A DNA stretch of 64,000 nucleotides from Betaproteobacteria bacterium (GCA_016868355.1 VGHB01000010.1:1-64000); one strand, 5' to 3'. Numbered from the stretch's first letter, positions 226 to 41,727 are shown. Made by a program: numbers and translations. Notes: generated from the letters alone by a model not told the origin.

Positions 226-228
226 CAA

Positions 229-18217: not shown

Positions 18218-19384
18218 TCAAGCAGCGGGTTTTGTCACCGCCGTGGGCAGCAGGGCCGAATTGTCCGCGCCCAGTGCCGAGCAGACACGCCCAGGCAGAC
18301 GAGCGCCGTCGAGGCGGATGGGGCTGGCCAGCAGACGCATCCCGTGCAGCGCAGGGTGCGGCGTGGTCTGCACACCGCCCTGTGCATGTACGAAAGGGTT
18401 CTCGAGCGCCTGCGCCAAGCCGTACACCGGCGCTACCGGCAGCCGCCCCTGTAGCGCTGCTAGCCAGGCAGCTGTGGGCCGGCGGCGGAACTCGCGGTCG
18501 AGCAGCGCGATCAGTTCGGCCTTATGTTCGCGCCGCGCGGCCACGCTCGCGAAGTGCGGATTGCGCAGTTCAGGTGCGCCGACCTCTTCGACCAGTTGGT
18601 CCCAGAACCGGGGTGTCATGCACATGACGAACATCTCGCCGTCGGCCGTGGGGAACAGCTGACACGGCACTGTAGACGGGTGCGCCGAACGCGCCTGGCG
18701 CGTTGTGACGGAACCGCTGTTCAGGTACCAGGCGGCGGGGTAGGTGAGCTGGAACAGTGCTACATCGAAGAGGCTCACATCCACGTCGCGGCCGCGGCCG
18801 GTCTTCAGCGCGCCCACCAGCGCTGCGAGCAGGCCCACTGCCAGCGTCACGCCACTCATATAGTCCACGATCGACAGCCCCATGCGCGAAGGCGGGCCCT
18901 CGGGCTCACCGGTCAGGTGCATAAAGCCACACTCGGCTTGCATCAGGTAGTCGTAACCTGGCCACGCGGCGCGTTCGTTGCCACGCCCGTAGGCCGAGAG
19001 GTGGCCGCAGACGATGCGCGGGTTATGTACCGCGAGCGCCGGGTGGGTGAGCCCGAGCTTGGCAGCCTGATCGCCGCGCAGATTCTCCAGCACGATGTCG
19101 CTCGTGGCCACCAGCGCCTGGAAGTCAGCTCGGCCGGCTGCGGTTTTCAGGTCGAGGACGACGCTCCTCTTGTTGCGGTTGAAAGTCTGGAAGAACTGGC
19201 TGTCGTTGTCGCCCAGGAAGTGCGGCCCGGTGGCGCGCGAGATATCGCCGCCAGGCGGCTCGATCTTGACGACCTCGGCGCCCAGATCTGCCAGATGCAG
19301 ACTGGCGAAGGGCCCGGCGCCGTACTGCTCCACCGCCAGCACGCGGATGCCGGCCAGCGGCAGGTCGGTGGCAAGGGCCGTCAT
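18218..19384 (-). CDS. CaiB/BaiF-type CoA-transferase (family III)
   Basis: A class III CoA-transferase of 388 residues from the ATG at 19384; the frame is open to 19411, which would overlap the dehydrogenase gene. It has LAGIRVLAVEQYGAGPFASL at the N-terminus, LADLGAEVVKIEPPGGD, and the catalytic Asp in WPGYDYLMQAECG. It is the last gene of the seven-gene operon starting at 23873. Together with the acyl-CoA dehydrogenase, MaoC hydratase and lyase-like genes upstream it makes a plausible activation/oxidation/hydration/cleavage chain for a dicarboxylic acid. The actual acid is not determined. Confidence 0.86.
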   Translation of the reverse strand: MTALATDLPLAGIRVLAVEQYGAGPFASLHLADLGAEVVKIEPPGGDISRATGPHFLGDNDSQFFQTFNRNKRSVVLDLKTAAGRADFQALVATSDIVLENLRGDQAAKLGLTHPALAVHNPRIVCGHLSAYGRGNERAAWPGYDYLMQAECGFMHLTGEPEGPPSRMGLSIVDYMSGVTLAVGLLAALVGALKTGRGRDVDVSLFDVALFQLTYPAAWYLNSGSVTTRQARSAHPSTVPCQLFPTADGEMFVMCMTPRFWDQLVEEVGAPELRNPHFASVAARREHKAELIALLDREFRRRPTAAWLAALQGRLPVAPVYGLAQALENPFVHAQGGVQTTPHPALHGMRLLASPIRLDGARLPGRVCSALGADNSALLPTAVTKPAA

Positions 19385-19397
19385 CGTATCCGCGCAT

Positions 19398-20552
19398 TCA
19401 AACGCCACCACGCTGCACCAGCTGCTTGGCGATGATGGTCTGCAGGATCTCGTTGGTGCCTTCGCCGATGCACATCAGCATCGCGTCGCGGTAGTAGCGT
19501 TCGATCTCATACTCGGTGCTGTAGCTGTAGCCACCGAAGATGCGCATGGCTTCGCTGGCGCAGAACACGCCCGCTTCCGAGCCGTGGAACTTGGCCATCG
19601 CGGCTTCCATATCGCAGCGCTCGCCGGCATCGTACTTGCGCGCCGCTTGTTCGATGAGCAGCTTGCTGGCCTCGACCTTGGTCACCATCTCGGCGAGCTT
19701 GAGCTGGATCGCCTGGTGCTCACTGATCGGCTTGCCAAACGCGCTGCGTTCCTGGGCGTAGCGCAGTGCCAATCGAAGCGCTCCCAGTGCAATTCCGCAG
19801 CCGCGTGCAGCCACGTTTATACGGCCGAGTTCCAGCCCGCCGGCGATCTGCGCGAAGCCCTTACCCTCCACACCACCCACCAAGCGCGAGGTGGGAATAC
19901 GAAAGTTGTCGAAGCTCAGCTCGCAGCTGTCGATGGCCCGGTAACCGAGCTTCTTCATCTTCTTGCTGACCTGAAAGCCTGGGCCTTTCTCGGCGATGAA
20001 CAAGCTCATGCCCTTGTGACGCGGCTGGGACTCGGGGTCGGTCTTGGCCAGCAGCAGGATGCCGTGGCCGTTGCCACTGTTGGTGATCCAGGTCTTAGCG
20101 CCATTGATCACATAGTGGTCACCCTCGCGCCGCGCCACGGTACGGATCGCCTGCAGGTCGCTACCGGCGTTAGGCTCGGTCAGCCCGATGCCACCGCGGA
20201 ATTCGCCGCTGGCCATCTTCGGCAGCCACTCGCGCTTCTGAGCCTCAGTGCCGAAGCGCTCGACGGCGCTGGCCATGATCAGGTGCGAATTGAAGATGCC
20301 GCTGGGCGCCATCCAGGCGCTCGCCACCTCGATCACGATCTTGGCGTAGGTGTCGGCAGATAGCCCGAGCCCGCCGTACTCAGGCGAGATCGTGGCTCCG
20401 AACAGTCCGAGCTCCTTCATCTGCTCGACCAGCGCGTGTGGATACTCGTCGGCCTGGTCGAACTTCCGTGCGATCGGGCGCACTTCCTTGTCGACCCAGG
20501 TTTCGATGCTTGCCAGGATGGCACGTTCATCTTCTGCGGTCCAGGTGCTCAT
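19398..20552 (-). CDS. acyl-CoA dehydrogenase
   Basis: A 384-residue flavoprotein that introduces a trans-2,3 double bond into an acyl-CoA. It has GIGLTEPNAGSDLQAIRTVA and WITNSGNGHGILLLAKTD for FAD binding, and RSAFGKPISEHQAIQLKLAEM. Glu364 in MCIGEGTNEIL sits at the catalytic-base position of medium-chain dehydrogenases. It is cytoplasmic and would pass electrons to ETF. Its gene follows MaoC by 1 bp. Given the mesaconyl-CoA-hydratase-like MaoC, a branched short dicarboxyl-CoA such as methylsuccinyl-CoA is a reasonable guess at the substrate. Confidence 0.9.
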   Translation of the reverse strand: MSTWTAEDERAILASIETWVDKEVRPIARKFDQADEYPHALVEQMKELGLFGATISPEYGGLGLSADTYAKIVIEVASAWMAPSGIFNSHLIMASAVERFGTEAQKREWLPKMASGEFRGGIGLTEPNAGSDLQAIRTVARREGDHYVINGAKTWITNSGNGHGILLLAKTDPESQPRHKGMSLFIAEKGPGFQVSKKMKKLGYRAIDSCELSFDNFRIPTSRLVGGVEGKGFAQIAGGLELGRINVAARGCGIALGALRLALRYAQERSAFGKPISEHQAIQLKLAEMVTKVEASKLLIEQAARKYDAGERCDMEAAMAKFHGSEAGVFCASEAMRIFGGYSYSTEYEIERYYRDAMLMCIGEGTNEILQTIIAKQLVQRGGV

Positions 20553-20553
20553 C

Positions 20554-21072
20554 TCAGTACCCTACCTTGTCCTCGACGCTGTGGCCGCGTCTGGCGATCA
20601 GCATTGTGCGCTTGAAATGGCACACCACGGTGCCATGTTGGTTGAAGCCGGTGGTCTTGACGCTGACCAGACCCGCGCTCGCGCGGCTCTTGCTTTCGCG
20701 TTTGTCGAGCACCTCGCTCTCAGCCGTCAGCGTATCGCCCGCGTACAGCGGGTGCGTGAGCTTGATCTCATCCCACCCCAGGTTGGCAATGGCCTTCTGC
20801 GAAACGTCGCTCACGCTCATACCGACCATCAGCGCTACCGTAAGCGGGCTGCAAACGATGCACTTACCAAACTCGCTAGCCTTGGCGTACTCAGCGTCGA
20901 AGTGCATCGGATGGGTGTTCATCGTTAGCAGCGTGAACCAGGTGTTATCGGTTTCGGTGATGGTACGGCCCGGCCGGTGTTCGTAGATGTCGCCGATATT
21001 GAAGTCTTCGTAGTGGCGGCCGAAACTCTCGCGGAAGCGCCGCTCACCGACCTGCTTGACGTTATGAACCAT
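20554..21072 (-). CDS. MaoC-type hydratase, mesaconyl/itaconyl-CoA hydratase-like
   Basis: A 172-residue single hotdog-fold hydratase. The frame is open to 21138, but MVHNVKQVGERRF at 21072 is the likely start. The block ITETDNTWFTLLTMNTHPMH, followed by FDAEYAKASEFGK, carries the Asp/His pair expected for hydration, and GMSVSDVSQKAIANLGWDEI is, from memory, close to mesaconyl-C4-CoA/beta-methylmalyl-CoA and itaconyl-CoA hydratases. It would add water to an unsaturated branched dicarboxyl-CoA. It lies between the acyl-CoA dehydrogenase and the lyase-like gene in one operon. Confidence 0.85.
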   Translation of the reverse strand: MVHNVKQVGERRFRESFGRHYEDFNIGDIYEHRPGRTITETDNTWFTLLTMNTHPMHFDAEYAKASEFGKCIVCSPLTVALMVGMSVSDVSQKAIANLGWDEIKLTHPLYAGDTLTAESEVLDKRESKSRASAGLVSVKTTGFNQHGTVVCHFKRTMLIARRGHSVEDKVGY

Positions 21073-21101
21073 GGCCTTGTTGCTCCGGTAGGGGTGTTCG
21101 T

Positions 21102-21782
21102 TCAGTGGGAAAGTGCGTGTGCTCTGCCGCCGGCACACGCGAGCAGGCGCTGCGCCGCCAGCGCTACGGGCTGGTCGTTGAGGCGGCTGCTCGGCAGCGC
21201 GGCTGCTGCATCAACGCCTGCTGGGCCAGCAGCGGCAACGACACGGCGTGCTTCGTCAATCTTGCCGGGGGTGGGTGCTAGCGCTGAGTGCACCGTCTCG
21301 AGCTGCCGCGGATGGATACAGGCCTTAGCCCTAAAGCCCAAGGCTGCAATGCGCTGCGTTTTGGCGGCCAGGCCGACGGTGTTCACGATGTCGAGCCAAG
21401 GCACGTCGATGCCTACCAAGCCGGTATCGGCGACCGCGCAGGTCCGCGTACCGCGGGCGTGCAGCAGATGCACCCACGCAAGGCGCGCGCCGAGTTCGCC
21501 AGCTAAGTCGACGCCGCCGAGCATGAAGACCTGAAGTTGCAGATGCGCGGCAGCGATTGCGGCCGTGTCATGCAAGCTGCGTGAGCGTTCGATCAGTGCG
21601 ATCAAGGTAATACCGTGCAGTTGTGCAGCCAGGATCTCGATCTCGGGGGCGCTTTCGGCCTTGGCCAGCATCACAAACACCGGCTCGGCAACGGTGCCGC
21701 TGGCCTCGGCCTTGGCAAAATATTCTGCTCGGTTAGTTGGCACGAACAGCAGTGAGCAGGTGTCGCAGATTGAAGGCGTCAT
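21102..21782 (-). CDS. HpcH/HpaI (CitE-like) aldolase family protein, internally deleted
   Basis: A 226-residue relative of citryl-, malyl- and citramalyl-CoA lyases, which are usually about 280 residues. The start SLLFVPTNRAEYFAKAEASG fits the family N-terminus and FRAKACIHPRQLETVHSALA the C-terminus. Directly after the N-terminus it jumps to PVFVMLAKAES, skipping the roughly 55-60 residues that normally hold the DLEDAV segment and the catalytic VRxN Arg. No DNA for that part is present in any frame, so this is an in-frame deletion and not a frameshift. The frame is open to 21962, but the ATG at 21782 follows the deacetylase gene cleanly. It may be inactive or have another role. Confidence 0.75.
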   Translation of the reverse strand: MTPSICDTCSLLFVPTNRAEYFAKAEASGTVAEPVFVMLAKAESAPEIEILAAQLHGITLIALIERSRSLHDTAAIAAAHLQLQVFMLGGVDLAGELGARLAWVHLLHARGTRTCAVADTGLVGIDVPWLDIVNTVGLAAKTQRIAALGFRAKACIHPRQLETVHSALAPTPGKIDEARRVVAAAGPAGVDAAAALPSSRLNDQPVALAAQRLLACAGGRAHALSH

Positions 21783-21792
21783 GGGCTCGCTC

Positions 21793-22704
21793 TCAGGCCT
21801 GCGTGGCAGCGGGCACTTGAGCGGCAAAGTGCTCGGCCACGGCACGCCGCGAGGTGATCCACACATCGCCGTTTCCCCGCATGGCGCCCTGCACATGTTC
21901 GAAAAAGCGCTCCAGCGCACCAATGCGCCCGGGCCGGCCAATGATGCGCAAGTGCAGGCCAAGCGACATCAGACGCGGCGGCGATTGGCCGCGGCGCGCT
22001 TCGGCCAGCAACTCATCAAAGCTGTCGATCGCATACTCAAGCCACAGGCGCGGCGTGTAGGCGGGTGCCACCCACATCTTCATGTCGTTGCTGTCCAGCG
22101 CATAGGGTACGATAATCATGGGCCGCGTCGAGCCAGGCACCGGGCCCCAGAAGGGCGTGTCAGCGCTGTAGTCGTCCATGTGATACAGAAAGCCCTCTTC
22201 CTGCAGCAGCCGGCGTGTGTGCTCGGTGTGCAGGTAGCGGCTGAGCCAGCCCACCGGGCGCAGACCGGTGCTGGCCTTGATGCTGTCGGCAGCGCGGCGG
22301 ATGAAGGCGCGTTCGTCCGCTTCGGCCAGCCGGAACTGGTGCACCCAGCGCCAACCGTGGGCGCACACCTCGTCGCCCCGCTCCCCGATACGCCTGCCGA
22401 TGGCTTGCGCGAGCGCTGGCGCACGTTCTAGTGAAAGTGCGGCCGCGGTCCAGGTGGCCGTGAAGCTGAAGCGATCGAGCAGTGCCAACACGCGCGGCCC
22501 ACCTTCTTCAATGCCGTAGCGGTAATTGCTTTCGTTGCCGTGCATGCGAACCGGCTTCTTCAGCATGACGCCGAGCTCATCGACCGGTTCGGGGATGGGG
22601 TCGCCGTCGGCGATGGAGTACTCCGAGCCTTCTTCGACGTTGACCACGATCGACAGCGCCAGCCGCGCGCCGCCCGGCCACTGCCATGCGGGGGTGGGAG
22701 ACAT
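21793..22704 (-). CDS. polysaccharide deacetylase-fold hydrolase (cyclic imide hydrolase/PuuE-like), copy 1
   Basis: A 303-residue NodB-fold protein of the allantoinase (PuuE)/cyclic-imide-hydrolase branch. It starts with WPGGARLALSIVVNVEEGSE and has ESNYRYGIEEGGPRVLALLD, EVCAHGWRWVHQF and LHLRIIGRPGRI. Chitin- and peptidoglycan-deacetylases have an export signal and a TFDDG motif; this has neither. Its branch typically opens cyclic ureides or imides in the cytoplasm. Two more members occur at 27886 and 28829, all in operons with the same operator. The substrate is inferred from family only. Confidence 0.8.
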   Translation of the reverse strand: MSPTPAWQWPGGARLALSIVVNVEEGSEYSIADGDPIPEPVDELGVMLKKPVRMHGNESNYRYGIEEGGPRVLALLDRFSFTATWTAAALSLERAPALAQAIGRRIGERGDEVCAHGWRWVHQFRLAEADERAFIRRAADSIKASTGLRPVGWLSRYLHTEHTRRLLQEEGFLYHMDDYSADTPFWGPVPGSTRPMIIVPYALDSNDMKMWVAPAYTPRLWLEYAIDSFDELLAEARRGQSPPRLMSLGLHLRIIGRPGRIGALERFFEHVQGAMRGNGDVWITSRRAVAEHFAAQVPAATQA

Positions 22705-22713: not shown

Positions 22714-23568
22714 TCAGTGCATTTCTTCACCGCCCGAGACGTTCATCGACTCGCCGGTGATGTACTGCGCCTGCTCGGAGCAGAGAAATGCAACCGCCGC
22801 GGCGGTGTCTCCAGGCAGGCCGGGCCGGCCGAGCGGGATGCGCGCACGCATGTCGGCCAGATACTGTTCAACGCTCTTGCCAAGCAGCTTGGCGAAGTAC
22901 TCGTTCTGCCAGGCGCCGAGCCCGGTTGTGACGTGGTTGGGGCAGACCGCGTTGACTGTCACGCCCAGCGGCGCCAGTTCGATTGCAGCCACGCGTGTCA
23001 GGCCCACCAGTCCGTGTTTTGAAGCGCAGTAGGAGGCGGCGTGGGGAAACCCGCTCTTTGCCGCCTGGCTCGCGATGTTGATGATGCGCCCGCCGTGCCT
23101 GCCCGCAGCTGCCTGCGCCGCGAAGCGCTTTGCCACCGCCTGCGTGGCGGCGAATACGCCGCGCAGATTGACACCCAGCACGGTGTCCCACTCCTCGAGG
23201 CTCATGTCGACGATGGGCTTCATCAGGTAACCGATGCCGGCGTTGTTGACGAGGATGTCGACGCAGCCAAGACGCGCCACGGTCGAGTCGACGAGTTGCT
23301 CCACCGCGGCACCATCGAGCATGTTGCACGGCAGCGCCAATGCGCTACCACCGGCGGCGTTGATCTCGGCCACCACCGCCTGCATTTCGCTGCTGGCGCC
23401 GATGGCTGACGCAGGCAGGTGCGGCCCGGCGGCCGCGCCGAGGTCAGCGACAACCGCATGCGCACCTTCGGCCGCCAGCCGCATGGCGATCGCAGCACCC
23501 AGCCCGCCGCGCCGCCCGGCGCCGGTGATGATGGCGACCTTGCCCTGCAGCTCGGGGTAGGCAGCCAT
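22714..23568 (-). CDS. SDR-family oxidoreductase
   Basis: A 284-residue short-chain dehydrogenase. The nucleotide-binding loop is TGAGRRGGLGAAIAMRL, with two extra residues compared with the usual TGxxxGIG. NNAG is present (ILVNNAGIGYL). The catalytic Ser lies in IINIASQAAK and the Tyr/Lys in YCASKHGLV. It probably oxidises or reduces a hydroxyl/keto group with NAD(P). ATG 23568 overlaps the last base of the HapK-like stop codon (TGATG), and a GTG one codon earlier is an alternative start. It belongs to the seven-gene operon behind operator copy 3. Confidence 0.88.
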   Translation of the reverse strand: MAAYPELQGKVAIITGAGRRGGLGAAIAMRLAAEGAHAVVADLGAAAGPHLPASAIGASSEMQAVVAEINAAGGSALALPCNMLDGAAVEQLVDSTVARLGCVDILVNNAGIGYLMKPIVDMSLEEWDTVLGVNLRGVFAATQAVAKRFAAQAAAGRHGGRIINIASQAAKSGFPHAASYCASKHGLVGLTRVAAIELAPLGVTVNAVCPNHVTTGLGAWQNEYFAKLLGKSVEQYLADMRARIPLGRPGLPGDTAAAVAFLCSEQAQYITGESMNVSGGEEMH

Positions 23569-23873
23569 CACAGCGACTGCGTGATGATAAACAGCGGCTG
23601 GTCGGCGAAGCTCTGGAACTGTGCTGCCACCGCCTGCATCGCGGGCGTACCGACGTCCTTGGCCAGCTGCGCCATGTCGTTGATGCGCAGGATCTCAACG
23701 TAGGCGTAAGGCGATGGCCCGCCGGTCAACAGACCGCTGGCCTTCAAGACCTCAAATTTGTCGACCGAGGGCAAGCTGCCGGCTGTGGGCAGATCGACCT
23801 CGCGCGCCCACTTCTCATATGCGGACTGCTGCTCGGCGTTCTTGAGGTTAAAAAGCACGATCAGGGTGGTCAC
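23568..23873 (-). CDS. REDY/HapK-like small protein
   Basis: A 101-residue protein resembling the REDY-like/HapK domain named after a prodigiosin-cluster protein. It has TTLIVLFNLKNAEQQSAYEK at the start, then LPSVDKFEVLKASG, YVEILRINDM and AAQFQSFADQPLFI. I chose the GTG at 23873 because the domain begins there; the frame runs up to 24188 but has no good ATG near the domain. The fold is a small ferredoxin-like alpha/beta barrel, of the kind seen in EthD-type proteins and small isomerases. The role is unknown. It heads the operon, 83 bp downstream of operator copy 3. Confidence 0.7.
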   Translation of the reverse strand: MTTLIVLFNLKNAEQQSAYEKWAREVDLPTAGSLPSVDKFEVLKASGLLTGGPSPYAYVEILRINDMAQLAKDVGTPAMQAVAAQFQSFADQPLFIITQSL

Positions 23874-23956
23874 GCAGGTCTCCGGCTGGGTTCGGTGGCA
23901 GCAAGGCGGGGTGATGCTGATCGGGCTTAACCCGTCCCCCAAAAGCGCCCCCGAAG

Positions 23957-23968
23957 TTGTCCGGACAA
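23957..23968. promoter_or_regulatory. operator copy 3 (TTGTCCGGACAA)
   Basis: A perfect 12-bp palindrome matching the consensus. It lies 83 bp upstream of the GTG start of the HapK-like gene and is placed to control the minus-strand operon down to 18218. Confidence 0.8.
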
Positions 23969-24230
23969 TTTGACTGCAGGCCCCCCGGGCTGTCAAGGCA
24001 GTGCACCTGATCCTTGAGATCAGTAGACCCTTGAGCCCGCGGGCGCAGTTCGCCGCTATCGCTGCAATGCTGCCCCTGGCCGGTGGGTCGGCTATTGCCG
24101 AACCCTTGTCCATGAGGCATGCCTCGAACCCCCTAGCCAACGTGTACCACCGCCAGTGGCTTGACTTGGAGACCACGCTCGAGCGCACACACGCAGGCGC
24201 AGGGGCTGAGTTGCCACGGCTTGTCGAAAG

Positions 24231-24242
24231 TTATCCGGACAA
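24231..24242. promoter_or_regulatory. operator copy 4 (TTATCCGGACAA)
   Basis: One mismatch to the consensus (A for G at position 3). It ends only 5 bp before the ATG of the amine oxidase gene, so a bound repressor would block a promoter or the start of transcription. The flanks match those of the other copies (AAAG on the left, TTAG on the right). Confidence 0.7.
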
Positions 24243-24247
24243 TTAGC

Positions 24248-27185: not shown

Positions 27186-27205
27186 TAAACCCAGGATCAC
27201 TAAAA

Positions 27206-28824: not shown

Positions 28825-28828
28825 AGCC

Positions 28829-35318: not shown

Positions 35319-36382
35319 ACACCACTGCTGACAGTCGCATCAAGCCCTATACCGCACTCGCACTGCAGACCCCCTGCCAGGCCATCAACCGTGCGCCCGA
35401 CACCACCACTGCGCGGCGCTGGATGATGGACAGCATTGAGCGTATTGGACGCCAGATCATTGCCAGCAAACGATTCATCGGGCCTGACGTGCGGCTCGTG
35501 GTGCTGCCCGAGTACTTCGCCTCCAGCTACCCTGCCGGTGAAAGCTTGCCGCTTTGGGCCGAACGTGCAGCCTGGGCGCCCGACGGGCCAGAGTATGCTG
35601 CCATCGGCGTCATCGCGCGCACTCACGGGGTCTACCTGAGCGGCAACGTTTACGAAACAGACCCCTACTTTCCGGGCCTGTACTTCCAGACCAGCTTCGT
35701 CACCAGCGACACCGGCCAGATTGTGCTGCGTTACCGCCGCCTAGTCTCGATGTTCGCGCCCACACCGCACGACGTTTGGGACCGCTACCTCGCTCATCAC
35801 AGCCTCGACGCCGTGTTTCCGGTGGCCGATACGCCGCTCGGGCGCCTGGCCTGCATCGCCAGTGAGGAGATCCTCTATCCAGAAATCGCGCGGGTGTTGG
35901 CGCTCAAGGGCGCTGAGGTCCTGCTGCATTCCACGAGCGAAGTTGGCAGCCCGCGTTTGACGCCCAAGGATGTGGCCAAACGCGCCCGCGCTTATGAGAA
36001 CATGTCCTGGGTGGTGTCGGCCAACTCCGCAGGCATCACCAACCTTGACTTCCCCACCCACAGCACCGACGGCATGAGCAAGGTGGTCGACTTCAAGGGC
36101 GAGGTGCGGGCCGAAGCCGGTTTTGGCGAGAGCATGGTTGCGCATGCCGAAATCGACATCGAAGCCGTGCGCCGACACCGCGCCAAACCCGGCATGGCCA
36201 ACGTGCTGGCGCGGCAACGGCTCGAGCTCTTCGCCGCCGCCTATGCCGGCAGCGTGTACCCTGCCAACAACATGCTCGGCCCCGGGGGTGAGCTGCAGGT
36301 GCCCGATCGCGCGCACTTCATGACGATGCAGTCGCGGGCGATTGAGGTGCTACGCGCGCGCGGCGTGGCCTTGGAGTCCTGA
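35315..36382 (+). CDS. nitrilase-superfamily protein with unusual active site
   Basis: A 355-residue carbon-nitrogen hydrolase homologue. Glu66 in VVLPEYF fits the catalytic Glu. The Lys of the usual YRK motif appears to be Arg142 (LRYRRLVSMF). In the block CIASEEILYPEIARVL, alignment on the trailing YPE puts Ser183 where ICYD-type enzymes have the nucleophilic Cys; Cys180 is three residues away. The fold seems intact through HSTSEVGSPR and ANSAGI. It may have changed chemistry, use Cys180, or be non-catalytic. It starts with an ATGA overlap with DUF1330. A family role in amide or nitrile hydrolysis would suit the cluster. Confidence 0.72.
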   Translation: MNTTADSRIKPYTALALQTPCQAINRAPDTTTARRWMMDSIERIGRQIIASKRFIGPDVRLVVLPEYFASSYPAGESLPLWAERAAWAPDGPEYAAIGVIARTHGVYLSGNVYETDPYFPGLYFQTSFVTSDTGQIVLRYRRLVSMFAPTPHDVWDRYLAHHSLDAVFPVADTPLGRLACIASEEILYPEIARVLALKGAEVLLHSTSEVGSPRLTPKDVAKRARAYENMSWVVSANSAGITNLDFPTHSTDGMSKVVDFKGEVRAEAGFGESMVAHAEIDIEAVRRHRAKPGMANVLARQRLELFAAAYAGSVYPANNMLGPGGELQVPDRAHFMTMQSRAIEVLRARGVALES

Positions 36383-36396: not shown

Positions 36397-37017
36397 TCAG
36401 AAGTTCCAGGCCCAGGGTCTTGCGAGTCGGTCGCGGGCTTCGAACGTGGCGATCTGGTCCTCGAGTTCAAGCGTGCGGGCGATTGCGTCCAGCCCGGTGA
36501 GCAGCATCTCACGTTCGCCGGGTGCCAGTTCGAAGTGGTACATGATGCCGTCGGGACGTCTCAGCTCGCCAGCGGCCACATCAATGCGCAATTCGAGCGG
36601 CGCCACCTCGGCTTGTCGTGCCAACGCTTGCGCCGCGGCCTGGGGCAGCACCACGGGCACGAGCCCGTTGCGCACACAGTTGTTGCGGAAGATGGCGCCA
36701 AAACTTGGTGCGACGATCGCTTGCAAGCCGAACTGGACCAACGCCCACACCGCCATTTCCCGGCTGGACCCACAGCCGAAGTTGGCGCCGGCTACCAGCA
36801 CCCGCGCCCGGCGCCAGGGTTCACGGTTGAGCACGAATTCGTGGTTCTCGGGGCCACCCGCAGCCAGGTAGCGCCAGGGGGCGAAGGCCTTGGCGCCGTA
36901 GCCCTCGCGTGATGGCGAGGTGATCTCCTGCGAGGGAATGATGATATCGGTGTCGATATTCTCGCGCCACAAGGCGGCGGCCAGGCCTTCAACCACGGGC
37001 AGGGGGGCGAAGGCCAT
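36397..37017 (-). CDS. LeuD-type hydratase small subunit
   Basis: A 206-residue aconitase-superfamily swivel-domain protein. From the ATG at 37017 it shows ENIDTDIIIPSQEITSPSRE, ANFGCGSSREMAVWAL and GAIFRNNCVRNGLVPVVLP, all typical of isopropylmalate-dehydratase-type small subunits. It starts 5 bp after the LeuC-type gene. No leuB or leuA lies nearby, and the pair is inside a catabolic operon. It more likely interconverts another branched hydroxydicarboxylate (2-methylmalate, dimethylmalate or similar) than makes leucine. Confidence 0.85.
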   Translation of the reverse strand: MAFAPLPVVEGLAAALWRENIDTDIIIPSQEITSPSREGYGAKAFAPWRYLAAGGPENHEFVLNREPWRRARVLVAGANFGCGSSREMAVWALVQFGLQAIVAPSFGAIFRNNCVRNGLVPVVLPQAAAQALARQAEVAPLELRIDVAAGELRRPDGIMYHFELAPGEREMLLTGLDAIARTLELEDQIATFEARDRLARPWAWNF

Positions 37018-37022
37018 ACCAC

Positions 37023-38474
37023 TCAGCTTTCGAGGTAGGGCCGTGGGTCGGTGATGTGACCAGCCAACGCCGAGGCCACCACCGTTAGTGGGCTTGCCAG
37101 ATGCGTGCGTACGCCTGGCCCCTGGCGGCCTTCGAAGTTGCGGTTGGTGCTGCTGATAACGCGCCGTGCGCTGCCCTCGGCAAAACCGAAGCTGTCGCCC
37201 CCCGAGAAGAAACACAGGCTGCAGCCGCTGGCGCGCCACTCGAAGCCAGCATCTTCGAACACACGGTGCAGGCCTTCGGCTTCGGCCGCGGCCTTGACCG
37301 GCATCGAGCCGGGCACGACGATGGCCTTCACGCTCGGCGCCACCTTGGCGCCGCGCAGCATTGCCGCTGCGGCCCGCAGGTCGCTCAGGCGGCTGTTGGT
37401 GCAGCTACCGATGAAGGCGGCGTCGATGGGCGTACCCGCCAGTGACTGCCCGGGCTTGAGCGCCATGTAAGCGAGTGCCTGTTCGCAGGCGCGGCGTCGT
37501 GCGGCGTCGGCTTCCTGCGAGGGGTCGGGCACGATGCCGTCCACCCCGCCGGTGTGCTCGGGGCTCGTGCCCCAGCTAACTTGAGGCGCGAGGTTGGCCA
37601 CGTCGAGTGTGATCTCAGCGTCCCAGGCCGCGTCGTCGTCGCTGCGAAGCGCGAGCCAATGCGCTGCAGCCTGGTCGAAGTGGGCGCCCTGGGGGGCGTG
37701 CGGACGCCCGGCCACCCACTGCAGCGTGTCCTCGTCGGGGGCGACGAGGCCAGTCCAGGCGCCGAACTCGACAGCCATGTTGCACAGCGTGAGCCGGCCT
37801 TCGATGGGCAACGCCCGCACCGCCGGCCCAGCGAACTCGATGGCGTGCGCCACGCCACCGGGGGCGCCACCGCTGGCCCCGAAACGGCCGATGAGTGCGA
37901 GGATCATGTCCTTGGCGACCACGCCGCCGGGCAGCACGCCATCGAAGCGCACGCGCATACGCTTAGGCTCGGGCGTCAACAAGGTGCCGGTGGCGACCGC
38001 GTGTTCACCTTCAGTGGAGCCGATGCCCCAGGCCAGCGCGCCCAGTCCGCCAACCGTACCTGTGTGGCTATCGGGACAGACGAGCGTGAGACCCGGCAGC
38101 GCTAGGCCCTGTTCTGGCGAGACCACATGCACGATGCCTTGCAGCCGGTCGTCTAAGTCGAAGAGCCGGATGCCAGCGCTACGGGCACTGTTGCGGAACT
38201 CGGTTATGAAGCTGCGCGCGCTCGGGCCGTGGCTCAGTTCGTTACGACCGGGCAGGGTGCTGACAATATGGTCCATGACGCCGAATATCCGCGCCGGATG
38301 GCGTGGCGCGCGGCCGGATGCAGCCAGGCCCGCGAGCAGCGCAGGGCCGGTGCGTTCGTGCAGGAATATACGGTCGATGGCCAACAGCGCTTGTCCGGGC
38401 TCGGGACGCGCCACCACATGCGCGTCCCAGATGCGGTCGATGATCGTGCGTGCAGGCACGGACAGGCGATTCAC
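37023..38474 (-). CDS. LeuC-type hydratase large subunit (4Fe-4S)
   Basis: A 483-residue aconitase-superfamily large subunit. The iron-sulfur ligands are visible: one Cys in TLVCPDSHTGTVGG or GSCTNSRLSDL, and two in SGCSLCFFSGGDSF. The C-terminal STNRNFEGRQGPG is standard. It dehydrates or hydrates a hydroxydicarboxylate together with the small subunit encoded downstream. The FFSGGDSF after the Cys pair departs from the usual MNPD-type sequence of LeuC, which agrees with a different substrate. It lies in a three-gene minus operon behind the DUF1838 gene. Confidence 0.88.
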   Translation of the reverse strand: MNRLSVPARTIIDRIWDAHVVARPEPGQALLAIDRIFLHERTGPALLAGLAASGRAPRHPARIFGVMDHIVSTLPGRNELSHGPSARSFITEFRNSARSAGIRLFDLDDRLQGIVHVVSPEQGLALPGLTLVCPDSHTGTVGGLGALAWGIGSTEGEHAVATGTLLTPEPKRMRVRFDGVLPGGVVAKDMILALIGRFGASGGAPGGVAHAIEFAGPAVRALPIEGRLTLCNMAVEFGAWTGLVAPDEDTLQWVAGRPHAPQGAHFDQAAAHWLALRSDDDAAWDAEITLDVANLAPQVSWGTSPEHTGGVDGIVPDPSQEADAARRRACEQALAYMALKPGQSLAGTPIDAAFIGSCTNSRLSDLRAAAAMLRGAKVAPSVKAIVVPGSMPVKAAAEAEGLHRVFEDAGFEWRASGCSLCFFSGGDSFGFAEGSARRVISSTNRNFEGRQGPGVRTHLASPLTVVASALAGHITDPRPYLES

Positions 38475-38493
38475 GAGCCTGGCGCGCTGCGGC

Positions 38494-39411
38494 TCACTTC
38501 TTGGGCGGGTTGAGCTTGCGGAAGTAGGTCCAACTCGTTTCGTTGGGCGTCACAAACTTCTCCGGCGCCGTGAGGTACTGCGCGAAGTTGGCACGCGTGT
38601 AGGCCTGCACGTCAGCCGGGAGCTCGGCGAAGCTGGCGTACTTACGGCCGTGGCCACTGTAGATCAGGTAACCCGCTTGTTGGCCCATCTTCATCCACGG
38701 TAGCCAGGGGCCGGTACGGGTCCAGGCGTAAGTGGTGGGCACACTGAGCAGCTTCGGGTTGCGCAAGTCGCGCGCATTGGCGAAGAAGATGAAGTGTTCG
38801 CTGGCGAGGTAAGTCGGACCGCTGCTCTCGGCCGGATACTCTGCGGGCTGCAGAGGGTTCGGGTAGCGGAGCGGGACATCCAGGCGCAGGAAGACATCGT
38901 CGCCGCTCAGCATGAAGGGGTAGCGCCCGGGCTGGCCGGCCTGTGGCGCGGCGTAACGCTGATTGACTGGGTCGTTGGCCACGTGCAGCACGGCCACCTT
39001 CTCGTTGGTGAAGGGGTTGGTCCAGTCGCTGAGGATCTGACCGGTGCGCGGGTCCCTGTAGTAGGCCACCTCGCGCGAGATGAACTCGGCACTGCCGTCA
39101 CTGTTCCTGACAAAACGGCCGACGTTATAGCCGTCGAGCCGCAGGATCTCGCGCGGGCGCTCGCCCGGCACTGCCGCGAATACCGTCACCCACCAGTTAG
39201 CGAACACCGTGGCGCCGTCGCTGCTGGCGCGCATGCGGATGAAGGCGTCGAGCTGGCCAGCCTGGGAGCTAAGGTCCAGCGGCGCGGCAGCGACCGCAGC
39301 GGGCGGAGCGGTCTGGGTGACCGTAACGGCGCATCCTGAGAGCGCCGCAGCAAGCGACACGGCGAGCGCGGCCCGGGCAGCGCGGGACGACAAAAAGGCG
39401 ATGCGGGGCAT
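38494..39411 (-). CDS. DUF1838 family lipoprotein
   Basis: A 305-residue protein from the ATG at 39411; the frame runs to 39477 but only this start gives a proper leader. The leader ends in LAAALSGCAV, a lipobox, so it should be anchored in a membrane. The body matches DUF1838: LDAFIRMRASSDGATVFANW, SREVAYYRDPRTGQILSDW and NPFTNEKVAVLHVANDPVNQ. The function is unknown; from memory, relatives occur in catabolic loci of sphingomonads and related bacteria. It heads an operon with the LeuCD-type hydratase, 54 bp from operator copy 7. Confidence 0.8.
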   Translation of the reverse strand: MPRIAFLSSRAARAALAVSLAAALSGCAVTVTQTAPPAAVAAAPLDLSSQAGQLDAFIRMRASSDGATVFANWWVTVFAAVPGERPREILRLDGYNVGRFVRNSDGSAEFISREVAYYRDPRTGQILSDWTNPFTNEKVAVLHVANDPVNQRYAAPQAGQPGRYPFMLSGDDVFLRLDVPLRYPNPLQPAEYPAESSGPTYLASEHFIFFANARDLRNPKLLSVPTTYAWTRTGPWLPWMKMGQQAGYLIYSGHGRKYASFAELPADVQAYTRANFAQYLTAPEKFVTPNETSWTYFRKLNPPKK

Positions 39412-39465
39412 GGGGTCTCCTGGGAGTGGCCGGTAGGATGACACTCGGTCGCCAAGGCCATGAAG

Positions 39466-39477
39466 TTGTCCGTACAA
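39466..39477. promoter_or_regulatory. operator copy 7 (TTGTCCGTACAA)
   Basis: An exact consensus match with extended flanks (GAAG on the left, CTCT on the right). It lies in the divergent gap between the DUF1838 gene and the methyltransferase gene, immediately upstream of a promoter-like pair at 39481-39509. Confidence 0.8.
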
Positions 39478-39480
39478 CTC

Positions 39481-39509
39481 TTGTTACCGGCAATCCTATC
39501 AGCTATCCT
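39481..39509 (+). promoter_or_regulatory. possible sigma-70 promoter for the methyltransferase operon
   Basis: TTGTTA (39481-39486) and TATCCT (39504-39509) are 17 bp apart, the optimal spacing for a -35/-10 pair. The operator ends 3 bp upstream of the -35 box, a good place for a repressor to block RNA polymerase. The ATG at 39565 is 55 bp downstream of the -10 box. Confidence 0.45.
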
Positions 39510-39564
39510 AAATGAGGCGCTTAGGTCGTCACCACACCGGCCACCCAGGCCCCTCTCTTTTGAC

Positions 39565-40779
39565 ATGAGCACACTGCCTTCCATCCCCAGCTGGCGCCAG
39601 GTTGGCCGCCATGCCGTGTTCCCCGAAGCCACACACGACGAGGTCGCCAGGTTCGACTTCCTCACGCGGCTGAACCTGCATCTGTCGCAAATGGTGCTCC
39701 CAGGCGTAAAGCTCGCATACGAGCAGCGAGTAAAGCCGGCCTTCGTGGCCGAATACAGCCGCGAGCCAGCTGACCGCCACGAGGTGCGCAAGGCTATGCA
39801 GCCCGACCTGCACTACCAGCTGTGGAGCGCGCTTCGCCGCAACTCGATGGAGATGCGTCAGCAGGCTGGCCGCGCGCTGGTGTTCCGCCAACTCGAGCGC
39901 TTGCGCGCTGCGGCCGACGCGCTGAACGAGGGGGCACCAACCCTTAAGCTGGACCCGTCCGTGAGGTCGCCGCGTTACGCCACTGCGGTCGACACCCACT
40001 GCATGCCCGGCAGTTACCACACCGAAACCGTCGAGCGCGACATCGCACCTGGCGCCAACTACGACGCCGGCATCTTCGTCACCACCGCTGGCATGCTCGG
40101 CGCCTACAGCGACGGCGGCGGCCAGGCTTTGGTCGACTGGCTCACGCAGCACAAGCCGGGCTGGAAGCCACGCCGCATCCTCGACATCGGCTGCACCATC
40201 GGCCATAACGCGTTGCCGCTGGCCCAGGCCTTCCCGGAGGCACGGGTGGTGGCCATCGACCCGGCCACGCCAGTACTGCGGTACGGCCATGCACGTGCCC
40301 GCTCGCTGGGCGTGCACAACATTGAGTTCGTGCAGGCAGTCGGCGAGAGCGTGCCAGCTGAAGACGCCAGCTTTGACCTCGTGACCACGGCGATGTTCTG
40401 GCACGAGACCAGCTCTGCGGCCATGCCGCGCATCATGAAGGAGGTGCATCGCGTGCTTGCCCCGGGCGGCCTCACGCTGCACCTGGAACAGCCGCAGTAC
40501 GCCGGCATGGACCCCTTCGTCGCCTTCATGCGGGACTGGGATGCCTACAACAACAACGAGCCTTTCTGGACCCGCATGCACGAGGCTGACCTGGACCGCC
40601 TCGTCACCCAGGCCGGTTTCCCCAATGGCAGCTACTTCGAAACGACAATGCAGGCCAAGGTGGACCGCCGTCTCTTTCCCGCCGCGGCGGCAGGCGAGGG
40701 TGGCGCAGCGCAGGAGGATTACGGCCGCACGCCTACCTGGACCGCTTTTGGCGCCAACAAGCCCGCGGTGCCGGCATGA
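39565..40779 (+). CDS. SAM-dependent methyltransferase
   Basis: A 404-residue class I methyltransferase with a long N-terminal helical domain (residues 1 to about 190). The Rossmann core carries ILDIGCTIGHNALPLAQAFP as the SAM loop, VVAIDPATPVLRYGHARA for the ribose-binding acid, and EVHRVLAPGGLTLHLEQPQY. The frame is open to 39460 inside the operator, but MSTLPSIPSW at 39565 is the likely start. Methyl transfer in a catabolic operon is unusual. It could be a detoxification step or the reverse-type removal of a methyl group; the sequence does not decide. Confidence 0.82.
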   Translation: MSTLPSIPSWRQVGRHAVFPEATHDEVARFDFLTRLNLHLSQMVLPGVKLAYEQRVKPAFVAEYSREPADRHEVRKAMQPDLHYQLWSALRRNSMEMRQQAGRALVFRQLERLRAAADALNEGAPTLKLDPSVRSPRYATAVDTHCMPGSYHTETVERDIAPGANYDAGIFVTTAGMLGAYSDGGGQALVDWLTQHKPGWKPRRILDIGCTIGHNALPLAQAFPEARVVAIDPATPVLRYGHARARSLGVHNIEFVQAVGESVPAEDASFDLVTTAMFWHETSSAAMPRIMKEVHRVLAPGGLTLHLEQPQYAGMDPFVAFMRDWDAYNNNEPFWTRMHEADLDRLVTQAGFPNGSYFETTMQAKVDRRLFPAAAAGEGGAAQEDYGRTPTWTAFGANKPAVPA

Positions 40780-41171
40780 AGCCCGAGCCGCAGCATCTCG
40801 ACCCCGTGGCCGAGGCCAACCGGCGCGCCCAGGGCAAACGGCCCTGGTTCCTGCAAGATCCGGCCACAGAGCGCGTGCTCTCCATCGCCATGGCCCTTGC
40901 CGGCGAACTGAGCGTAGCGCGTGAACGCATCGACACGCTGGAGCGCCTGCTCGAACAACGTGGCCTGCTCAGCCGTGCCGACATCGAGGGCTTTTCGCCC
41001 GACGCCGCCGCCCAGACCGAGCGCGACGCATGGGGCCGTGCCTACATCGCGCGTATTCTGCGCATCATCGACCAAGACGTGCAGGCCCTCAACGAGGCCA
41101 ACGCTGGTGCGCCTGACCCAAGCATAGAAGCGGTGATTGAAGAGCTCGGTCGCAGTGCCGACCCTACCTGA
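40776..41171 (+). CDS. hypothetical protein, operon member
   Basis: A 131-residue acidic protein I do not recognise. It is predicted mostly helical, with a long helix around AMALAGELSVARERIDTLER LLEQ, and no signal or membrane segment. Its ATG overlaps the methyltransferase stop (ATGA), so the two are probably made together and may work as partners. It is followed 37 bp later by the DUF3598-like gene. Confidence 0.7.
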   Translation: MKPEPQHLDPVAEANRRAQGKRPWFLQDPATERVLSIAMALAGELSVARERIDTLERLLEQRGLLSRADIEGFSPDAAAQTERDAWGRAYIARILRIIDQDVQALNEANAGAPDPSIEAVIEELGRSADPT

Positions 41172-41208
41172 TCCGCCGCTGCGCCGTACCAGTTCCCGAG
41201 GAGGCCCG

Positions 41209-41727
41209 ATGTCCGAATTCAAAAAGAGGTTCGCCCTGCTTGCCCGCCATGAAGGCGTATGGGACGGTTGGTACCGCTACTACGAAGCCGCCGGCGAAAA
41301 GATCGACGAGCACCGTTCGCGCCTGGTCTGCCGCTTTCCCGACAGCGGCCGTTTTGCCTACGACCAGACCAACCATTACTCTTGGGCGGACGGCCGGCGC
41401 GATGTGCGCGGCTTTCCCGCCAACGCCGGTCCCACCGGCGACCGCATCGTGTTCGAGAGCGATCTCATCGAAGGCTGGGCTGCCGATGTGGCGCTGGACA
41501 CCGCCGCGCGCACGACCATGCTGCACTGGGTCCGGCGCAACGAGCCGGGCGTCTACCTCTACGAGATGATCCAGATCAGTGACTGCGGACGCTACCGCTC
41601 GCGCGTGTGGCACTGGTTCCGTGACGGCCGGCTCTACCAGCGCACGCTGATTGACGAGGAGAAGGTGTCGAGCCAGTGGCGTGACATCACCGGGCCGAGT
41701 TTTGCCGGTGAGCCGTTACCGGCTTGA
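41209..41727 (+). CDS. DUF3598-like beta-barrel protein
   Basis: A 172-residue protein, start chosen by a strong GAGGAGG site in front of the ATG. It is rich in aromatic and charged strands (HEGVWDGWYRYYEAAGEKID, CRFPDSGRFAYDQTNHYSW, GVYLYEMIQISDCGRYRSR, VWHWFRDGRLYQRTLIDEEK) and reminds me of DUF3598, a calycin-like family related in fold to lipocalins and bilin lyases. It could bind a hydrophobic ligand. It is the last gene of the methyltransferase operon and of the catabolic block; transposase debris begins after its stop. Confidence 0.65.
   Translation: MSEFKKRFALLARHEGVWDGWYRYYEAAGEKIDEHRSRLVCRFPDSGRFAYDQTNHYSWADGRRDVRGFPANAGPTGDRIVFESDLIEGWAADVALDTAARTTMLHWVRRNEPGVYLYEMIQISDCGRYRSRVWHWFRDGRLYQRTLIDEEKVSSQWRDITGPSFAGEPLPA

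Follow-up and report, generated by a model that had tools for sequence, protein, structure and literature searches.

Gene organization of the cluster

The 64,000-nucleotide stretch of Betaproteobacteria bacterium DNA analysed here (GCA_016868355.1 VGHB01000010.1:1-64000; hereafter the window) carries a large gene cluster, which we followed by ORF listing and by Pfam and NCBIfam searches from about 9975, at a GntR/UTRA-type regulator, to 45267, at the end of an HMGL-type lyase gene (Table 1). At its centre are three adjacent genes (27155-29758), referred to here as the core, which encode an isochorismatase-type amidase and two PuuE-like proteins of the "polysaccharide deacetylase" type. A further flavin-oxidase-family gene lies at 45477, beyond the right end of the cluster. 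Loci and genomes compared with the window are designated by L and G numbers, respectively.

Table 1. Features of the cluster in the window. Cut-offs are those of the respective family models; counts refer to the 80 best loci carrying relatives of a core gene, or to 117 sequences examined.
Position	Strand	Assignment	Supporting data
9975..10883	+	GntR/UTRA-type regulator, likely regulator of the block	Matches the profile of the GntR cluster found beside the core elsewhere, E 1.5e-26; that cluster in 34 of 80 loci, one member scanned has PF07702/PF00392
10938..12605	+	FAD_binding_4 oxidase	PF01565 E 9.2e-29; cluster in 12 of 117 sequences
16351..17346	+	Zinc-type dehydrogenase (ADH_N_2 family)	PF16884/PF00107; cluster in 10 of 117 sequences
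17366..17965	+	Glyoxalase-fold protein, exported by eye	PF00903 E 1.3e-5; cluster in 9 of 117 sequences
18218..19411	-	Class III CoA-transferase 1	PF02515 E 6.1e-110; best NCBIfam hits succinate-glutarate and succinyl-CoA:mesaconate CoA-transferase, below cut-off
19398..20552	-	Acyl-CoA dehydrogenase	PF00441 E 3e-46; below NCBIfam cut-offs for acryloyl-CoA reductase and glutaryl-CoA dehydrogenase
20554..21138	-	MaoC hydratase, like RipB/Ich of itaconate degradation (start uncertain)	NF038241 E 3e-71, 238.9 bits, cut-off 340
21102..21821	-	CitE/RipC-type C-C lyase, apparently missing about 60 residues in frame (start uncertain)	NF038242 E 3.3e-34, 118.6 bits, cut-off 375; tblastn of the orthologue from locus L052 jumps from its residue 59 to 121 between 21699 and 21689, same frame
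21793..22704	-	PuuE-like hydrolase 1 (proposed imidase of the second module)	TIGR03212 E 1.4e-60, 204.8 bits, cut-off 424.6; PDB 1z7a and 3cl6 (PuuE) E 3.1e-54 and 5e-54
22714..23571	-	Short-chain dehydrogenase	PF13561 E 5.7e-52
23568..23888	-	HapK (REDY-like) protein; start uncertain within ORF 23568-24188	PF11639 E 1.6e-11, 45 bits, cut-off 25; HapK in 12 of 80 loci by tblastn
24161..25705	+	Exported flavin amine-oxidase-family protein, Tat-like RR signal by eye (start uncertain)	PF01593 E 4.5e-61; in 7 of 80 loci
25740..27185	+	Aldehyde dehydrogenase (start uncertain)	PF00171 E 8.8e-109
27155..27889	+	Isochorismatase-type amidohydrolase (proposed half-amidase), core gene	PF00857 E 6.6e-30; PDB N-carbamoylsarcosine amidohydrolase 26st E 2.8e-27; in 79 of 80 loci; Cys of the TSGC motif in all 92 aligned
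27886..28824	+	PuuE-like hydrolase 2 (proposed imidase), core gene	TIGR03212 E 6.7e-36, 123.8 bits, cut-off 424.6; PDB PuuE 3cl6 E 2.9e-29; first row of the query alignment of the 80-locus scan
28829..29758	+	PuuE-like hydrolase 3, core gene	TIGR03212 E 5.2e-23, 81.5 bits, cut-off 424.6; in 79 of 80 loci
29867..32368	+	TonB-dependent receptor	PF00593 E 1.1e-34, PF07715 E 1.3e-16
32368..33264	+	Exported protein (lipobox-like signal by eye) related to CpeT-containing proteins	See text
33230..34138	-	VOC-like protein	Pfam Glyoxalase E 0.077 only; profile of neighbours E 3.9e-71; that cluster lies beside RCC reductase in L092, L158 and L160
34186..34974	+	Enoyl-CoA hydratase/isomerase (start uncertain)	PF00378 E 1.7e-41
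35309..36382	+	Nitrilase-superfamily protein with Ser where the catalytic Cys is expected	PF00795 (CN_hydrolase) E 9.5e-30; ASEE motif in 16 of 16 sequences
36397..37020	-	LeuD-type small subunit	PF00694 E 5.3e-26; TIGR00171 above cut-off
37023..38474	-	LeuC-type large subunit (proposed alkylmaleate hydratase)	PF00330 E 3.4e-144; PRK12466 above cut-off; TIGR00170 530.9 bits, just below cut-off of 560.25
38494..39477	-	DUF1838 protein, lipobox-like signal by eye	PF08894 E 1.2e-70; in 9 of 80 loci
39562..40779	+	SAM methyltransferase (start uncertain)	PF13649 E 3.6e-21; in 14 of 80 loci
40776..41171	+	131-aa partner of the methyltransferase	In 14 of 80 loci, the same 14 as the methyltransferase
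41209..41727	+	DUF3598/CpeS-like calycin beta-barrel (predicted fold)	See text
43067..44290	-	Class III CoA-transferase 2 (proposed alkylcitramalate CoA-transferase)	PF02515 E 6.9e-106; in 32 of 80 loci
44287..45267	-	HMGL-type lyase (proposed alkylcitramalyl-CoA lyase)	PRK05692 276.3 bits, cut-off 246; PDB HMG-CoA lyase 6nds E 6.9e-64; in 32 of 80 loci

A sequence-only reading of the segment 18218-41727 had noted there a TonB receptor, a HapK-like protein, flavin oxidases, imide/amide hydrolases, a LeuCD-type hydratase, an exported CpeT-like protein and a DUF3598-like beta-barrel, and our searches confirmed that this gene set is real, although the conserved block proved to be larger than that segment. 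Within the segment, the flavin enzymes are one amine-oxidase-family protein and one acyl-CoA dehydrogenase, the additional flavin-oxidase-family genes at 10938 and 45477 lying outside it, and the imide/amide hydrolases are the three PuuE-like proteins, the isochorismatase and the CN_hydrolase. The three PuuE-like proteins fell below the equivalog cut-off for PuuE allantoinase, and the RipB- and RipC-like proteins below those for the itaconate pathway, whereas the HapK and HMG-CoA lyase family assignments were above cut-off and LeuCD matched its family models with the single exception of TIGR00170. In the nitrilase-superfamily protein, a Ser occupies the place, judged by eye, of the Cys of the Glu-Lys-Cys catalytic triad in 16 of 16 sequences, an observation that leaves undecided whether this requirement of the superfamily is fulfilled.

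Two proteins were examined in more detail; the sequence-only reading had likened them to bilin-handling folds and had named a structural check for a pocket of bilin size as a test of its idea. The protein at 32368 gave no Pfam hit at E<=1, and thus does not carry the CpeT domain PF06206 at that level, but matched a profile of six proteins from the same kind of cluster at E 4.6e-45, mainly over the part after their CpeT domain plus the GEWNNHEQVWQQ motif; two of those six were scanned and carry PF06206 at E 1.3e-32 and 1.1e-20. Its predicted structure was poor (pLDDT 54), Foldseek returned nothing at E<=0.001, and the best VIA-align hit was a CpeT, 5hi8, with Z 7.0 over 67 residues, the next being 4.7; with a model of this quality the comparison does not decide whether the protein has the CpeT fold, and a bilin pocket is not supported. 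The protein at 41209 matched DUF3598 (PF12204) at only E 0.018 (15.9 bits, cut-off 22), but its predicted fold (pLDDT 79.9) matched the DUF3598 structure 2o62 at Z 13.9, CpeS 4tq2 at 12.7, 3bdr at 12.4 and UnaG 4i3d at 10.4. Matches to BFA1, spirocyclases, nitrobindin and FABP were obtained as well, so that the predicted barrel names no ligand.

Conservation of the core and of neighbouring modules

One of the core genes has 532 relatives in GTDB genomes, in varied bacteria; the three-gene core recurs in many bacteria, mostly from water, and all three core genes were found together in 78 of the best 80 loci; the core order also recurs in nine other genomes of the same order as the window's organism, indicating that the arrangement is not due to chance. 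In these 80 loci, many of which are cut by contig ends, LeuC was found in 33, LeuD in 30, and the HMGL-type lyase and CoA-transferase 2 in 32 each. An ICL/PEP-mutase-family protein, absent from the window, was present in 23 of 80 loci. Some loci also carry a red-chlorophyll-catabolite (RCC)/bilin reductase, a Rieske oxygenase, a chlorophyllase-like hydrolase (one member E 3.7e-13) or CpeT, a bilin-lyase family. The Rieske oxygenase is nearest to NdmA in the PDB, not to pheophorbide a oxygenase.

RCC/bilin-reductase-family proteins were located 5.8-7.7 kb from the core in 8 of the 80 loci, and CpeT-family proteins clustered into 6 of 80. One reductase that was scanned gave PF06405 at E 9.1e-12 (45.2 bits, cut-off 24.9) and Fe_bilin_red at E 8.5e-6, and matched the PDB bilin reductase 6qwq at E 4.9e-8. 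Several modules of the window lie beside such a reductase elsewhere: the core; VOC-LeuCD-ECH-Hyp131-methyltransferase in L158; HapK-SDR-Pdac1-CitE-MaoC-ACAD in L163; FAD_binding_4 and DUF1838 in L164; and the CoA-transferase/HMGL pair. In contrast, the amine oxidase, nitrilase-like, CpeT-like, DUF3598-like, zinc dehydrogenase and glyoxalase-fold clusters were not seen in one locus with a reductase.

Association with the RCC reductase and CpeT families

At the genome level, we found RCC reductase above cut-off in 21 and CpeT in 25 of 50 core-bearing genomes, with either family in 39 of 50, compared with 3 of 364 genomes of the window's class lacking the core (Fisher 4.4e-41, or 2.2e-12 for the reductase after the 8 linked loci were dropped). 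Within one family, the reductase was present in 9 of 30 genomes with the core and in 1 of 110 without it (p 2.8e-6). Related genomes are not independent, and this family test shares 9 genomes with the set of 50; association is not activity. In genome G304, reductase, CpeT and core lie at 80, 112 and 130 kb of one contig.

The association is not complete. Eleven of the 50 core-bearing genomes have neither family, two core-negative genomes (G591 and G686) carry both, and G750 has the reductase without the core. The window's own genome yielded no RCC reductase at E<=0.1, in a search that had no positive control although the family was detected among the 50 core-bearing genomes, and no PF06206 at E<=1. 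Stay-green was not found in the 50 core-bearing genomes, again without a positive control. The two Halomonadaceae genomes tested (G335 and G338) have neither reductase nor CpeT and pair the core with a TRAP transporter, suggesting that the core may serve any maleimide-like acid.

Proposed pathway

The data may best be explained, with moderate confidence, by a catabolic cluster for linear tetrapyrroles (bilins or chlorophyll-derived phyllobilin-type chains) or their fragments. In this view, the outer-membrane receptor and the exported bilin-fold-like proteins would take up or handle the material, and oxidative enzymes would yield alkylmaleimides such as hematinic acid and methyl-ethyl- or methyl-vinylmaleimide; hematinic acid and maleimides are reported oxidation products of heme and chlorophyll (PMC7318184). 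PuuE-like hydrolases would open the imide ring and the isochorismatase-type enzyme would remove the ammonia from the half-amide, giving alkyl-methylmaleates, which LeuCD would hydrate to alkylcitramalates; CoA-transferase 2 would activate these, and the HMGL-type lyase would split them to pyruvate and an acyl-CoA, namely glutaryl-CoA from hematinic acid and a C4 acyl-CoA from the ethyl or vinyl imides. A second module, with its own PuuE-like enzyme, CoA-transferase 1, RipB-like hydratase and RipC-like lyase, would run the itaconate-type order, activating before hydrating, although in the window its lyase looks shortened. Our analysis demonstrates the gene content, its conservation and its association with the RCC/bilin-reductase and CpeT families, whereas the individual reactions are deduced from these and neither an activity nor the substrate has been shown; turnover of bilins or alkylmaleimides, binding and growth were not assayed. 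The pigment itself has not been shown to be the food.

The sequence-only reading had inferred a pyrrole chain as substrate, broken oxidatively to alkylmaleimides, opened and deaminated to dialkylmaleates, hydrated by LeuCD, activated with CoA and cleaved, and this interpretation is supported, since the proposed chemistry matches the conserved gene set and the reductase and CpeT genes of other genomes, which that reading could not have seen, give independent support for a linear tetrapyrrole. The exact compound is not supported by our data, nor is prodiginine. Homologues of the block in an established pathway for a non-pyrrole compound, which had been named in advance as evidence that would refute the idea, were not encountered in what we searched.

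Alternative explanations

A possible but less likely alternative is that the core is a general pathway for small cyclic imides, hydantoins or maleamate-type acids of any origin, tetrapyrroles being only one source, and that the window's organism may use another N-heterocycle. Among solved structures, the nearest named relatives of the core proteins are PuuE allantoinase and N-carbamoylsarcosine amidohydrolase, hydantoinase A/B-type genes lie near the core in L114 and L127, and the wide distribution of one core gene and the Halomonadaceae loci also fit this view. However, a hydantoin or ureide route does not call for LeuCD, CoA-transferase and HMGL, and the frequency of RCC reductase or CpeT in core-bearing genomes speaks against it.

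It is unlikely that the cluster makes, modifies or detoxifies a bilin rather than feeding on it. Bilin reductases and CpeT have biosynthetic roles in phototrophs, and pre-PcyA bilin reductases occur in heterotrophs (PMC10151467), but two C-C cleavage modules with CoA-transferases, hydratases and lyases, plus imide and amide hydrolases, look catabolic. The pre-PcyA clusters in that paper have globins and V4R proteins, none of which appeared among the 40 neighbour proteins scanned, although not every neighbour was scanned. It is equally unlikely that the genes are unrelated catabolic functions that happen to be neighbours: the full set is split and shuffled between genomes, but the trio stays together in nearly every locus and the modules recombine yet recur together. 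Degradation of prodiginines or similar bacterial tripyrroles is very unlikely, as it is suggested only by the family name HapK and by a sub-cut-off hit of the acyl-CoA dehydrogenase to PigA (E 7.2e-54), far from its best hit, whereas RCC/bilin reductase and CpeT are tetrapyrrole families.

Relationship to known systems

The plant PAO/RCCR phyllobilin pathway resembles some of the related loci in having an RCC-reductase-family protein together with a Rieske oxygenase and chlorophyllase-like hydrolases, but the window lacks the reductase and Rieske clusters, the Rieske oxygenase is NdmA-like and not PAO, and plants stop at phyllobilins, while these loci continue with imide hydrolases and C-C lyases. 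The itaconate pathway (RipABC or Ict-Ich-Ccl) shares with the second module a CoA-transferase, a RipB-like hydratase and a RipC-like lyase in one run of genes; here, these are linked to a PuuE-like enzyme, an SDR and HapK. The citramalate route of Chloroflexus uses LeuCD, a citramalate CoA-transferase and an HMGL-type R-citramalyl-CoA lyase, types of gene often found with the core (LeuCD, class III CoA-transferase and HMGL-type lyase); the route proposed here is predicted for alkyl-substituted citramalates fed by an imide, and a match to the Chloroflexus enzymes was not examined. In the dimethylmaleate branch of nicotinate fermentation (DmdAB), an aconitase-family hydratase likewise acts on a dialkylmaleate, and one of the ICL/PEP-mutase-family proteins found near the core is related to 2,3-dimethylmalate lyase 3fa3, but it matches petal death protein and methylisocitrate lyases better. 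Cyclic imide degradation by imidase and half-amidase has the same inferred order of ring-opening hydrolase and then amidase; no imidase sequence was compared, although imidases have been linked to the PuuE fold.

More tentatively, and with somewhat less than even likelihood, the cluster may represent a widespread, undescribed bacterial pathway that takes chlorophyll- and bilin-derived tetrapyrroles to central metabolism, by ring opening and reduction (through Rieske oxygenase and RCC-reductase-type enzymes in some genomes, with ready-made bilins in others), oxidation to alkylmaleimides, imide opening by PuuE-like hydrolases, deamidation by an isochorismatase-type enzyme, and two parallel citramalyl-CoA-type cleavages giving pyruvate plus glutaryl-CoA or a C4 acyl-CoA. 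Such a pathway would explain where much of the carbon and nitrogen of decaying chlorophyll and phycobilins goes.

Organization of the gene block

The block lies on a contig of a 2.7-Mb genome, and all of the items named by the sequence-only reading were found to exist, although the block is larger than that reading had given. Upstream it includes a GntR/UTRA-type regulator, together with a FAD_binding_4 oxidase, a zinc dehydrogenase and a glyoxalase-fold protein that recur elsewhere, and downstream it includes class III CoA-transferase 2 and an HMGL-type lyase. The positions of the features, and of related sequences found in other loci, are listed in the table below. Searches with Padloc, against phrogs and for viral contigs, phages and plasmids were not made, as nothing pointed there. 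The CitE/RipC-type lyase gene of the block seems to be shortened. A nitrilase-like protein has Ser at the place, judged by eye, of the expected catalytic Cys in 16 of 16 aligned sequences (ASEE motif), perhaps reflecting a changed mechanism or a non-catalytic role.

Positions of features in the window and in related loci
Feature	Location	Observation
GntR/UTRA-type regulator	9975 (start)	Upstream member of the block
CitE/RipC-type lyase gene	21102-21821	Seems to have lost about 60 residues in frame compared with its orthologue in locus L052; the open frame continues
Conserved core: isochorismatase-type gene and second and third PuuE-like genes	27155-29758	
Protein related to CpeT-containing proteins	32368 (start)	
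Nitrilase-superfamily protein	35309-36382	
Protein predicted as a calycin barrel	41209 (start)	
TctC solute-binding protein	42093-43070	At the downstream end; membership in the block unclear
HMGL-type lyase	45267 (end)	Downstream member of the block
Isocitrate/isopropylmalate dehydrogenase-family gene	46652-47791	At the downstream end; membership in the block unclear
Second, divergent set in the same genome	Locus L046 (contig C31 of genome G000), 1-9717	PuuE-like genes, isochorismatase, Asp/Glu racemase, PhyH dioxygenase and a PrpD family gene; possibly a paralogous route
Conserved unknown protein c55	Locus L085, 6834-7805, and 15 relatives	Beside RCC reductase in 15 of its 16 loci; weak DUF3598 similarity in 2 of 10 members
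Unknown 240-aa family c8	Locus L092, 18022-18744, and relatives	In 25 of 80 loci; mean column identity 74% in 11 aligned; one member has no Pfam match above cut-off; no PDB match for the profile

Conservation of the core genes

We found that the isochorismatase-type gene (the amidase) and the second and third PuuE-like genes recur together. In regions taken from a sample of genomes of the same order, the trio was seen in nine other genomes. A scan of genome contigs with nine aligned PuuE-like proteins revealed 532 relatives, of which the best 80 loci were retained; judged by the titles of their records, these are mostly Gammaproteobacteria, many from marine genera, with Burkholderiales and a few others. 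Culturable relatives with the core include, for example, Microbulbifer elongatus (locus L091) and Alteromonas lipolytica (locus L126). Of these 80 loci, many of which are cut by contig ends, 79 have the amidase and 79 the third PuuE-like gene, with both present in 78. By tblastn (E<=1e-6, some matches being at low identity), LeuC was found in 33, LeuD in 30, CoA-transferase 2 in 32 and the HMGL-type lyase in 32 of the 80; acyl-CoA dehydrogenase (ACAD), SDR and aldehyde dehydrogenase in 17 each; the nitrilase-like gene in 15; the methyltransferase, its small partner (Hyp131) and VOC in 14 each; HapK in 12; CoA-transferase 1, MaoC, CitE and PuuE-like 1 in 10 each; DUF1838 in 9; TonB and ECH in 8; the CpeT-like gene and amine oxidase in 7; and the DUF3598-like gene in 2.

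Linkage of the core to tetrapyrrole-related families

Clustering of all neighbouring genes of these loci and Pfam scans of chosen representatives showed families that the sequence-only reading could not see. These were RCC reductase, present in 8 of 80 loci at 5.8-7.7 kb from the core; CpeT, in 6 of 80 loci, two members of which were scanned and carry PF06206; a Rieske oxygenase, in 5 of 80, which is nearest to a methylxanthine demethylase; and chlorophyllase-like and alpha/beta hydrolases, in 4 of 80, with one member of each scanned. Gene calls for the clustering came from a simple ORF picker, which missed some core genes that tblastn found, and some loci overlap (for example, L085 with L153 and L100 with L159), such that the locus counts from the clustering are not independent. 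In addition, twenty further regions around reductase copies show the reductase with the Rieske enzyme; with LeuCD; with the VOC-LeuCD-ECH-Hyp131-methyltransferase run that the window also has (locus L158, with VOC-LeuCD also in L160, where the region ends); and with HapK-SDR-PuuE-like 1-CitE-MaoC-ACAD (locus L163). Recurrent neighbours of unknown role in regions around the reductases (L150 and L156-L163) included a NAD epimerase-family protein, an arylmalonate-decarboxylase-family protein and, in a few loci, flavin reductase and rubredoxin-reductase fusions.

However, the amine-oxidase, nitrilase-like, CpeT-like, DUF3598-like, zinc-dehydrogenase and glyoxalase-fold clusters of the window were not seen in one locus with a reductase, and neither RCC reductase nor a Pfam-level CpeT was found in the window's own genome. 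Similarly, a search for stay-green in 50 core-bearing genomes, made without a positive control, gave no hit; bacterial stay-green homologues have been described, but their physiological relevance is called unknown (PMC8531759). Profiles of two conserved neighbours of unknown family (A6 and A7) had no match among solved structures at E<=1. A7 gave weak DUF3598_N hits in 2 of 10 members, the best at E 0.0056, and its comparison with the family of the protein at 41209 was weak (hhalign probability 6).

Co-occurrence at the genome level

For genome-level counts, 50 of the 80 loci were picked by eye and without a fixed rule, mostly leaving out short contigs and near-duplicate species. RCC reductase occurs in 21 of these 50 core-bearing genomes and CpeT in 25; at least one is present in 39, both in 7 and neither in 11. 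Since all 8 loci with a linked RCC reductase were among the 50, the reductase count without them is 13 of 42. In one genome (G304), reductase, CpeT and core lie at about 80, 112 and 130 kb of one contig. In a class-wide sample of 369 genomes, the window's own included, 5 have the core gene, 3 have RCC reductase and 4 have CpeT, core presence being judged by one core gene (PuuE-like 2, E<=1e-90). Removal of the 5 core-positive genomes left 364, of which 2 have the reductase and 3 have either family, two of those three (71% and 84% complete) carrying both. Fisher tests gave 1.4e-19 for the reductase, 2.2e-12 for the reductase without the linked loci, 4.2e-23 for CpeT and 4.4e-41 for either family. 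Because these tests ignore relatedness, we repeated the comparison inside the family of Halioglobus (locus L085), using 140 genomes that include 9 of the 50, 7 of them among the 10 with a reductase. Within this family, where core presence was judged by the same core gene, the reductase is in 10 genomes, the core in 30 and both in 9, that is, 9 of 30 with the core against 1 of 110 without it (p 2.8e-6). A tree-aware co-occurrence test of the core with PF06405/PF06206 over all GTDB genomes was not made.

Predicted structures of the two candidate barrel proteins

A bilin-size pocket in the proteins at 32368 and 41209 had been proposed beforehand as a structural check of the pyrrole reading. The protein at 41209 was predicted with fair confidence (pLDDT 79.9) as a calycin barrel close to BFA1, DUF3598, nitrobindin and S-type phycobiliprotein lyases, which is the kind of pocket sought, although the fold also occurs in proteins for fatty acids, heme and other ligands. 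The protein at 32368 is a divergent relative of the CpeT-containing proteins of other clusters, keeping their C-terminal part and the opening motif but not a recognisable CpeT domain, and Pfam gave no CpeT match for it; the CpeT protein of locus L090, by contrast, is intact. Its model was too poor to judge the fold: Foldseek gave no hit at E<=0.001, and the one hit that stood out in a second comparison (VIA), CpeT 5hi8 with Z 7.0 against 4.7 for the next, is suggestive only.

Proposed pathway

The proposal that the substrate is a pyrrole chain gained strong independent support from these data for a linear tetrapyrrole or its maleimide fragments, but neither the exact substrate nor any enzymatic step was tested here; the gene content and its associations are what we observed, and the steps below are inferred. 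Results against the proposal are the lack of an RCC reductase and of a Pfam-level CpeT in the window's own genome, the 11 of 50 core-bearing genomes with neither family, the likeness of the Rieske enzyme to a methylxanthine demethylase, the lack of a stay-green hit in the search without a positive control, the about 60 residues missing from the window's CitE, and the Ser of the nitrilase-like protein. Oxidation of heme and chlorophyll gives hematinic acid, and maleimides have been reported as well, although the study concerned did not itself detect the maleimides in leaves (PMC7318184). PuuE opens a cyclic ureide, and therefore a role of the PuuE-like enzymes, whose nearest named solved relative is PuuE allantoinase, as imidases is plausible but unproven. 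The amidase is close to carbamoylsarcosine-type amidohydrolases. LeuCD, CoA-transferase 2 and the HMGL-type lyase would form a hydrate-activate-cleave route, whereas CoA-transferase 1, the RipB-like hydratase and the RipC-like lyase would form an activate-hydrate-cleave route. For hematinic acid, the inferred products would be pyruvate and glutaryl-CoA. The upper steps, that is, which enzyme cuts the chain to maleimides in the window's organism, are unassigned. An ICL/PEP-mutase-family protein, with relatives in the PDB, is added in 23 of the 80 loci and could, by inference, cleave the hydrated acid without CoA, but the window has none.

Steroid, microcystin and nicotinate readings were considered from organism names and gene types only and were not tested. 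The prodiginine reading, which had also been put forward from the sequence alone, was rejected, as nothing beyond the HapK name points to it.

Significance

Chlorophyll is made and degraded on a scale of 10^12 kg a year (PMC7318184), and phycobilins and heme add to it. Pre-PcyA bilin reductases have been described in heterotrophs (PMC10151467), but we saw no bacterial pathway that carries these rings into central metabolism in the part of the open-access literature that was surveyed, a limit that leaves a published description possible. What would be new is the pathway and not the enzyme families, which are mostly of known kinds, and this novelty depends on the inferred substrate. If the reading is right, the amidase and the two PuuE-like hydrolases would provide marker genes for tetrapyrrole turnover in oceans and lakes, RCC-reductase and CpeT homologues would have a role in bacteria outside the phototrophs, and DUF1838, HapK and DUF3598-like proteins would be given testable roles.
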